From NCBI GenBank assembly GCA_030750865.1, contig JASMHE010000008.1, positions 620,001 through 684,000 of the forward strand: a stretch of DNA of 64,000 nucleotides, given 5' to 3'. Position numbers and translations under genes: made by a program. A model generated the notes under the pieces. That model saw only the letters and a program-made list of their open reading frames with translations. It had not been told where the DNA came from and did not search any database. This stretch comes from Alphaproteobacteria bacterium. Lineage in GTDB: Bacteria; Pseudomonadota; Alphaproteobacteria; Micavibrionales; Micavibrionaceae. Positions 18,001-62,994 of the stretch are shown here, in pieces (within the stretch, counting starts at the first letter, position 1; each line of letters starts with the position of its first letter).

Positions 18001-18051
18001 GCACGGTACAGCACGGCACACCGTCGCTATGACTTAATTTCGCTATGACTT
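18001..18051. repeat. Tandem repeats spanning the comF stop codon
   Basis: Two adjacent repeats lie in the ubiH/comF spacer: a ten-base unit GCACGGTACA/GCACGGCACA at 18001-18020, and CGCTATGACTT at 18025-18035 and 18041-18051 (period 16). The right copy of the second includes the comF stop codon and its last two codons, so the gene's 3' end is duplicated just beyond itself. Confidence 0.8.
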
Positions 18052-18780
18052 GATCACACGCGCCACCGTCAAAACAGAAACACCGGCCGCGCCGCCATCT
18101 TTCTTCAACACACGCGCACATTCCGAAATGGTCGCCCCCGTTGTAAACACATCATCAATCAGCACAATATGCTTATCCCTGATCTGCGACTGACAACGGG
18201 GATTCACGGCAAATGCTTTGGCCACATTCTTGTGCCGTGCGGACGATGATAAAACACCTTGTGTGGCCGTTGCCCGCGTCCGTAACAAGCCATCAAGCAA
18301 AACGGGGATTTCATTTTTACAGGACAGCGCTTTTGCAAGCTCGGCCGCTTGATTATAGCGCCGCCGCACAAGCCGCGTATAATGCAGCGGCACAGGCACA
18401 AGATAATCAGCACGCGCGAACAAAGGTTGCCCGGCCCGCACAAGCCACGGTGTTAAGGCGTTCACAAGATGCATTTGATCGGCATGTTTAAATCGCAAAA
18501 TAATATCGCGGCTCGTATCATTATAACGTACTGCGGACCGCGCCAGATCGAAAGCCGGTGTTTCATGATGGCAAGCCGCACAGATTTGATCGTCACCACC
18601 TGCATCAAAATCAAACGGATAGCCACACGTGTCGCAATGCGGATCGGATATAAACGCCAGCCCGCTCCAGACTGCCGCCGATAACATGCCGTCATCATCA
18701 ACGATATCCCCCGTCACCGGACAGCGCGCCGGGAGAATAAGGTCGATGCCTTGCCGTATCATGTTCTTGAATCGCTGCAA
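18043..18780 (-). CDS. comF: ComF-family phosphoribosyltransferase-like protein
   Basis: 245 residues. An N-terminal zinc-finger region (CPVTGD, then CDTCGYPF and CAACH, about residues 19-80) precedes a type I phosphoribosyltransferase domain with PRPP loop IVLIDDVFTTGATI near 203-216. ComF proteins act in DNA uptake in competent bacteria, though many carriers are not known to be transformable and the biochemical role is unsettled. Other competence genes are not in the window. Confidence 0.9.
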   Translation of the reverse strand: MQRFKNMIRQGIDLILPARCPVTGDIVDDDGMLSAAVWSGLAFISDPHCDTCGYPFDFDAGGDDQICAACHHETPAFDLARSAVRYNDTSRDIILRFKHADQMHLVNALTPWLVRAGQPLFARADYLVPVPLHYTRLVRRRYNQAAELAKALSCKNEIPVLLDGLLRTRATATQGVLSSSARHKNVAKAFAVNPRCQSQIRDKHIVLIDDVFTTGATISECARVLKKDGGAAGVSVLTVARVIKS

Positions 18781-24647: not shown

Positions 24648-24680
24648 AATGAATACTCACCCTTATATATTACGATTCAT

Positions 24681-24716
24681 GCACTTTGTGTGTTTCAGGC
24701 ACTGTGTGTATTTCAG
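24681..24716. repeat. 18-base tandem repeat including the DUF1192 stop codon
   Basis: Two 18-base units (24681-24698 and 24699-24716) differ at two positions: GCACTTTGTGTGTTTCAG and GCACTGTGTGTATTTCAG. The right unit contains the stop codon of the DUF1192 gene, so the left unit is a duplication just beyond its 3' end. Confidence 0.8.
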
Positions 24717-24895
24717 GATTTAAAGAATGCATCGGCGGCGTTTTTGGATGCTTCTTTCTTCTCAATCTCGGCCTCCACACGCGCAATTTCCGCTTTCAGA
24801 TTATCGATATATGTCTCGAGTTCATCAACCGACATATCATCCAGAACACGCGGCGCAGATTTTTTGCTCGTGAGGGCGTCATCATCCTCAAACAT
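24713..24895 (-). CDS. DUF1192-family small protein
   Basis: 60 residues with the DUF1192 pattern: MSVDELETYIDNLKAEIARVEAEI, residues 21-44 in part, followed by KKEASKNAADAFFK. It is almost entirely one coiled-coil helix. The family is conserved in alphaproteobacteria next to a PIG3-type quinone oxidoreductase gene, which here lies divergently 74 bases away. No biochemical role is known. Confidence 0.88.
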   Translation of the reverse strand: MFEDDDALTSKKSAPRVLDDMSVDELETYIDNLKAEIARVEAEIEKKEASKNAADAFFKS

Positions 24896-61624: not shown

Positions 61625-62014
61625 TTAAAATTCACCGAGAACGCTGGTGATTTTTTGTTTTAATGTGTCGGCATTGAACGGCTTCACGATGTAATTATTC
61701 ACACCGGCTTTCTTCGCCGCCACAACATTTTCTGTTTTGCTTTCCGCCGTCACCATAATGAAGGGCACATTGGCATTATCATCGCCTTTCGCGCGCACCT
61801 GTTTCAGTAAATCCAGTCCTGTCATCGGCTCCATATTCCAGTCAGAGATCACCAGCCCATATCGCTTATTCTTCATAGAATTCAGAGCCATTGTACCATC
61901 GGTCGCTTCATCAATATTACGGAACCCGATCTGGCGTAACAAATTCCCGATAATGCGCAGCATTGTTTTATAATCATCAACGATTAAAACATTCATATCC
62001 ATATCAACAGACAC
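61625..62014 (-). CDS. cheY: Chemotaxis response regulator CheY
   Basis: 129 residues, a single receiver domain: NVLIVDDYKTMLRII, phosphoacceptor Asp58 in VISDWNMEPMTG, and TAESKTENVVAAKKAG with the conserved switch Thr and the C-terminal Lys in VKPFNAD. Starts at GTG behind AAAGGA. Next to cheZ, whose product reverses its phosphorylation; it will bind FliM encoded nearby. Confidence 0.95.
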   Translation of the reverse strand: MSVDMDMNVLIVDDYKTMLRIIGNLLRQIGFRNIDEATDGTMALNSMKNKRYGLVISDWNMEPMTGLDLLKQVRAKGDDNANVPFIMVTAESKTENVVAAKKAGVNNYIVKPFNADTLKQKITSVLGEF

Positions 62015-62067
62015 ATCTATATCCTTTCATATGCGCTTCATTTTCTTCGTTGTGCAGGCGACACCAT

Positions 62068-62099
62068 CATCATAAGACACTGGCATCATAAGACACTGG
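62068..62099. repeat. Perfect 16-base tandem duplication between cheY and motE
   Basis: CATCATAAGACACTGG occurs twice in direct succession (62068-62083 and 62084-62099), followed by another CAT. The 269-base spacer also has a CCGATC/GATCGG palindrome at 62243-62256. Confidence 0.85.
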
Positions 62100-62257
62100 C
62101 ATTCCGCACAATTCACGTTTGGCACGACATCGCCGCGCCGGACACAATCAAGGATAGCGGAGTTCAAAAACGGACCAAACTCATTTTTCAAAGGGAATTC
62201 AGGTGTAACCACCATCAGGAAAATAGGCAACGCGCATAGAGGCCGATCGAGATCGGA

Positions 62258-62296
62258 TTAGCGTGAGAGGTTAACGTGAAAAATTAGCGTGAAAGG
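62258..62296. repeat. 13-base tandem triplication including the motE stop codon
   Basis: Three 13-base units begin at 62258, 62271 and 62284 with TTAGCGTGA, TTAACGTGA and TTAGCGTGA. The third holds the last three codons and stop of motE read on the minus strand, so the gene end has been copied twice downstream. Confidence 0.85.
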
Positions 62297-62994
62297 GCTG
62301 GCATCTGTTTTTCTTGCGCAAGCATCAACGTCACGGTACGCGCACGATCCGCATTCATCGCCGCGATAATCGGGGCCGATTTCCGTTCGGACATATTCAT
62401 CAACACATCCACCAGAATATCCAGATCAAGCGTGTTAAAGATACGTGCCGCATCTTTTGCTTTCATGCCTTCATATATTTTCACAAGGCTTTGCATGCGC
62501 CGTTCATTTTCGGCATCCTGCTTATCAAGCATCTTTTCAATTTCGCCTTGCACGGCTGTCAGCTCACGCATTTTCTGCTCAAGCTCTCTTTCAGCCGCTT
62601 CAAGAAGTGCTTCACGCATCAGCAATTCCTGCTCGCGTTGCTCGATCACTTCGCGCCGCTCGGCCAGATCTTTGTAAAGCTGTACCTGAACGTCCGAAAA
62701 TTCAATGTCATCATTCACCGGATCAACCCAATCCGTCAGCGGGTTATCCTCATCCATAATATCCTGTTCGGATTCCATGCCTTGAAATTCGTCTTCATCA
62801 CCCAGAATGATCACGCCACCGGATTCATCGGCATTGTCGGCCGCCGCATCACCTTCTGCGGCGCTCTCCTCCTGCTGCGCAAGCGCATCACCAACACCCT
62901 GAACACCAACAAGAAAGTCACCAATTCGTATCGAAAAAGAAAGCAGCGACACAAGAATAAGGACCGACAGAAAATTCGGACGAACCAAACGCAT
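62284..62994 (-). CDS. motE: MotE-family flagellar motor chaperone
   Basis: 236 residues. A signal or anchor helix (SVLILVSLLSFSIRIG, about 9-25), an acidic spacer (about 40-95), a long coiled coil (about 105-175: REVIEQREQELLMREALLE), and a C-terminal MgtE-N-like part with YEGMKAKDAARIFNTLDLDIL and MNMSERKSAPIIAAM. MotE in Sinorhizobium is a periplasmic chaperone for MotC, so the name is by family. It lies between the DUF6468 gene and cheY. Confidence 0.85.
   Translation of the reverse strand: MRLVRPNFLSVLILVSLLSFSIRIGDFLVGVQGVGDALAQQEESAAEGDAAADNADESGGVIILGDEDEFQGMESEQDIMDEDNPLTDWVDPVNDDIEFSDVQVQLYKDLAERREVIEQREQELLMREALLEAAERELEQKMRELTAVQGEIEKMLDKQDAENERRMQSLVKIYEGMKAKDAARIFNTLDLDILVDVLMNMSERKSAPIIAAMNADRARTVTLMLAQEKQMPALSR

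Follow-up and report, generated by a model that had tools for sequence, protein, structure and literature searches.

The motE-like gene end and other stop-spanning arrays

The window, which is the whole stretch of DNA that was analysed here, is 64,000 nucleotides long and corresponds to positions 620,001 to 684,000 of contig C8 of the genome G000. The motE-like gene is found on its minus strand at 62284-62994 and encodes a 236 amino acid protein that contains an MgtE_N domain (Pfam PF03448, 26.6 bits); the name motE is the label of the first-pass annotation, and the domain match is barely over the Pfam cut-off of 25.9. It adjoins two genes, both downstream, which encode a CheY-like protein and CheZ (Pfam Response_reg PF00072 and CheZ PF04344). 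The cheY-like open reading frame (Response_reg) is located on the minus strand at 61625-62014, with its start at 62014.

At the end of the motE-like gene, three degenerate 13-base units follow each other on the minus strand (62258-62296). Read from 62296 to 62258, these are the gene end itself, CCTTTCACGCTAA (62284-62296), which includes the TAA stop, then TTTTTCACGTTAA and then CCTCTCACGCTAA. By direct count, copies 1 and 3 are identical in 12 of 13 bases, copies 1 and 2 in 10 of 13 and copies 2 and 3 in 9 of 13. TRF places the array at 62257-62294 with a period of 13, 2.9 copies and 76% matches, and the autocorrelation scan places it at 62258-62294 with a score of 9. Direct reading, TRF and autocorrelation all confirm the first-pass description of three 13-base units that include the last codons and the stop of motE. 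In mononucleotide shuffles of the 286 nt that extend from the motE end to cheY, a score of at least 9 with a period of 8-20 is reached at any position with P = 0.014. Three-copy arrays of the same identity are not unique: the window contains six, and 796 kb of the same genome contain 52, of which 19 are mostly noncoding.

Two further minus-strand genes carry an array over their stop codon. The comF array consists of two units of period 16 over a TAG stop (18024-18051, autocorrelation score 12). The gene itself, at 18043-18717 or 18043-18780, shows a DZR_2 match above its cut-off and scores 97 bits against the NCBIfam comF model, which is under the 234-bit cut-off of that model. The DUF1192 array consists of 2.3 units of period 18 over a TGA stop (24676-24717, found by TRF and by autocorrelation with a score of 15), and its gene is located at 24713-24895 (Pfam PF06698, 71 bits). 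Among the three arrays that of motE is the weakest (score 9, 76% matches). All three minus-strand genes with a duplicated stop that had been listed are thus real cases, but the list was incomplete. A fourth array with a period of 11 and an autocorrelation score of 9 was detected on the plus strand at 2941-2960, where it spans the stop (2953-2955) of the gene at 1306-2955. As this gene is encoded on the plus strand, the pattern is not limited to the minus strand.

A different tandem repeat is the strongest one around the motE site: a perfect 16-base unit in 2.2 copies in the gap between motE and cheY (62068-62102, minus strand), which is not at a stop codon and lies 53 nt upstream of the cheY-like start. 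With a TRF score of 70 and an autocorrelation score of 19 it is much stronger than the motE array, and it probably represents a recent duplication.

Short tandem arrays in the spacers

Arrays were defined by a period of 8-20 and an autocorrelation score of at least 9 (match +1, mismatch -2), with simple repeats removed. This threshold equals the score that the motE array itself reaches, and thresholds of 8, 10 and 12 were also run. Gene calls were made with a custom hexamer caller and no curated annotation, and spacers of at least 40 nt were compared with their dinucleotide shuffles.

The spacers of the window contain 10 arrays against a shuffled mean of 0.8 or 1.0 in two runs, an excess of about tenfold. 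Outside the window, the first 796 kb sampled from this genome comprise C8:1-620k, C8:684-740k and C1:1-120k, where we found 26 arrays against 7.4 in shuffles, 7 against 0.6 and 35 against 3.3, respectively, so that in these three regions beyond the window the excess is about 3.5- to 12-fold. In three relatives, with 400 kb taken from each, the counts were 24 against 4.3 (G022), 18 against 4.4 (G030) and 9 against 5.0 (G004). With 10 arrays in the window where shuffles give about one, arrays as a class exceed chance, and in this respect the earlier impression of something more than chance was right; the part of it that concerned stop codons is not supported, since there is no excess at stops over the adjacent spacer (below).

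Among the spacer arrays listed for C1:1-120k, the top score (38) belongs to the one at C1:104497-104558, in which a 12-base unit of the type GTGTTCYGCCGC is repeated roughly five times.

Arrays over stop and start codons

The stop codon analysis covered 1.036 Mb of the 2.19-Mb genome, all of it outside the window. A stop was counted as spanned if an array covers its middle base, at least 30 nt of downstream spacer were required, and the expected count was derived from each stop's own downstream gap, up to 400 nt (own-gap control). Among the controls used, this is the one to which we give most weight. In the own genome 18 of 621 stops are spanned where 15.6 were expected (P = 0.28), and the three relatives together have 3 spanned stops of 577, with 6.2 expected. 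The pooled count of 21 of 1198 stops against 21.8 expected shows no enrichment over the adjacent spacer, and thresholds of 8, 10 and 12 give no significant stop excess either. Within the window itself 4 of 49 stops are spanned against 2.6 expected by the same control (P = 0.24); measured against the whole noncoding coverage of the window, the result is P = 0.07.

The own-gap control includes the gap part of the stop-spanning arrays, which biases it against detecting enrichment, and for this reason array coverage by distance was also examined. Among the own stops, 371 are followed by a gap of at least 60 nt. Their coverage amounts to 2.7% both at the stop and at +10, 1.35% at +20, 2.4% at +30, 4.0% at +40 and 4.3% at +50, and the stop itself forms no peak.

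When all noncoding DNA serves as the reference, the share of own stops that are spanned is nominally high (18 of 621 versus 1.72%, p = 0.024), and with the relatives pooled in the value is p = 0.13. This excess stems from twelve stretches that were added late (8 of 147 stops), two of which have 13-14 kb called noncoding, which may lower the baseline; in the first 796 kb of the own genome 9 of 477 stops (1.9%) are spanned versus 2.0% of the noncoding DNA. Comparing the window with the rest of the sampled genome gives 4 of 58 versus 12 of 691 stops (Fisher p = 0.029), a comparison qualified by the fact that the window was picked because of the pattern. When the 11 hits of the contig were randomly reassigned to stops, at least 4 hits fell into some 64-kb stretch in 32% of the reassignments.

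The comparison with shuffles and relatives, which had been suggested in the first-pass annotation, gives a divided answer: arrays do exceed shuffles, but stops match their adjacent spacer. The enrichment of stops over other intergenic positions is absent relative to the adjacent spacer and nominal relative to all noncoding DNA, and a special tie of the arrays to gene ends is not supported.

Start codons behave in another way. Pooled over the own genome and the three relatives, only 7 of 1434 are spanned where the adjacent spacer predicts 19.95, and stops and starts differ in this with a Fisher p of 0.0019. Arrays are depleted over start codons, and purifying selection would be the likely cause.

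Occurrence in relatives

The motE-like gene was matched in 52 of 57 relatives, DUF1192 in 31 and comF in 35, and for each gene the arrays were examined in 29 relatives. None of the 29 shows a stop-spanning array at the motE end, and the same result (0 of 29) was obtained for the DUF1192 array and for the comF array. One of these relatives does have an array at +8 to +30 of the motE end, which is unrelated, and three of them carry arrays at a distance of over 150 nt downstream. In the single genome of the same genus that the searches returned, where the motE-like protein is only 48% identical, the motE and DUF1192 arrays are absent and comF has no match. The arrays are very probably lineage-specific, as they are not conserved at orthologous sites in the relatives examined.

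Array density along the chromosome

The density of spacer arrays is 0.28 per kb in C8:1-540k, 0.78 in C8:540-620k, 0.95 in the window, 0.98 in C8:684-740k and 1.46 in C1:1-120k, with shuffled rates of 0.06-0.12 per kb in all of these regions. The spacers of the region around the window thus have about three times the array density of C8:1-540k. Compared with C8:1-540k, density is higher in the far part of C8 with the window left out (p = 0.002) and in C1 (p = 6e-9); the split at 540 kb was chosen post hoc from the density profile. That several arrays are found in the window follows from this regional density, which also helps to account for the impression recorded in the first-pass annotation.

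Turns of the GC skew conventionally mark the terminus (plus to minus) and the origin (minus to plus) of a chromosome. Here the plus-to-minus turn is found near 290 kb of C8 and the minus-to-plus turn near 80 kb of C1; dnaA is located on yet another contig, C9. Between the putative terminus (C8, ~290 kb) and the putative origin (C1) array density increases about fivefold, and the window is located on the ascending part of this gradient. In twelve more stretches of 20 kb each, taken from other contigs, the density varies between 0 and 1.45 arrays per kb. The gradient is absent in G022, the sole relative sampled along a whole contig (its second 400 kb served the gradient only and were excluded from the stop test), and an origin-to-terminus gradient as a family trait was rejected on this result. 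It is conceivable, and in our view rather doubtful, that in this species the formation or retention of short tandem duplications depends on chromosome position. If this were true, a replication-linked duplication rate would account for the clustering of stop-spanning arrays here, and a regional gradient, if upheld, would be a small lead on how the duplication rate varies along a chromosome.

Origin of the arrays

Copied stops resemble design, yet stops behave as the adjacent spacer does, while starts repel duplications. Arrays that are found throughout the spacers, that show no stop excess over the adjacent spacer and that are absent from the relatives examined look like tolerated copying noise. 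Based on this, the arrays are very probably neutral short tandem duplications that are tolerated over stops.

In bacterial spacer DNA, short tandem duplications arise by replication slippage, which is the most likely cause of the arrays described here. Replication slippage, or a similar local duplication, would create tandem units of 8-20 bases in spacers generally, and these units would then decay by point mutation. A duplication that runs from the last codons past the stop would leave the protein unchanged, as the first stop still ends it; the stop codon would be transparent to such events and duplications over it could persist. Start codons would not be transparent, because a duplication there would disturb the ribosome-binding site and the start and would be removed. 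The slippage at gene ends that had been proposed is therefore upheld in one half: slippage-type duplication fits the arrays best, but without a special tie to gene ends.

The arrays share with slippage duplications the head-to-tail units of 8-20 bases, the two to three degenerate copies, the lineage specificity and the higher density in spacers than in genes. We see no difference from them; some arrays here happen to include a stop codon. Direct repeats of TAACTGA reported in Beggiatoaceae (PMC4679880) are likewise short spacer repeats of which some overlap stop codons, but they represent one motif at many loci, whereas the three arrays here differ in their units and that of motE is not dispersed. 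Among the papers listed by the literature searches, none was seen that treats tandem arrays spanning bacterial stop codons as a class of their own, although such work may exist.

One alternative is that the copied stops are selected as back-ups, because they halt ribosomes that slip or read through the first stop. In its favour, both TGA copies of DUF1192 (+18 and +36) keep the reading frame, the junction of the two comF copies creates an in-frame TAA at +9, and the three TAA of motE (0, +13 and +26) occupy all three frames; the nominally high count of own stops against all noncoding DNA (p = 0.024) would also fit. Yet DUF1192 is the sole array of the three with an in-frame copied stop. The copied stop of comF at +16 and those of motE at +13 and +26 are out of frame, and the next in-frame stop of motE comes only at +69. 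Selection of this kind is also at odds with the match between stops and adjacent spacer (21 of 1198 against 21.8) and with the absence of the arrays from all 29 relatives examined per gene. Additional in-frame stops, which resemble the copies in lying downstream of the true stop, are reported to be under-used and not enriched across 644 bacterial genomes (Ho and Hurst, 2019; PMC6764699), and two of the three arrays described here have their copied stop out of frame. Frame, the lack of enrichment over the adjacent spacer and this published work all disfavour back-up stops, which we regard as improbable.

Another hypothesis, to which we give an equally small chance, is that the array acts as a 3' transcript element or a protein-binding array, such as a terminator, an RNA-stabilising element or a regulator site for the cheY-like gene. 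It could draw on the motif CGTTAA, which lies within unit 2 and occurs in 8 of the 19 gaps between motE and cheY, the own gap among them, where 0.88 would be expected from shuffles. However, this hexamer was chosen among all hexamers, another of which reached 12 of 19 in shuffles, and it is located 69-119 nt before the start of the next gene in 7 relatives and 262 nt before it here. At the motE end, the only one of the three analysed in this way, neither a terminator-like site nor a match to Rfam was found and RNA folding is not unusual (z = 0.33), so the 3' transcript features proposed in the earlier reading received no signal from any of these. The sole promoter-like match is on the plus strand, against 0.8 expected. 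In the form TYTCACGYTAAY the unit matches one other site in the genome, compared with four for a reversed-pattern control, and by the same count it is not a dispersed repeat.

Pure coincidence of sequence, with no duplication at all, is the least probable reading: the motE array is indeed the weakest (score 9, 76% matches), its shuffled region reaches the same score in 1.4% of cases and reading 64 kb amounts to many looks, but spacer arrays are about tenfold over shuffles in the window and about 3.5- to 12-fold over them in three other regions of the own genome.

CtrA sites have the consensus TTAA-N7-TTAA. A CtrA-type site was rejected for the region between motE and cheY, with no match of one mismatch or fewer in the own gap (62015-62283); of the 19 gaps, one contains an exact match. 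Apart from the array, CGTTAA in the motE-cheY gaps of the 19 genomes may be a candidate regulatory site.
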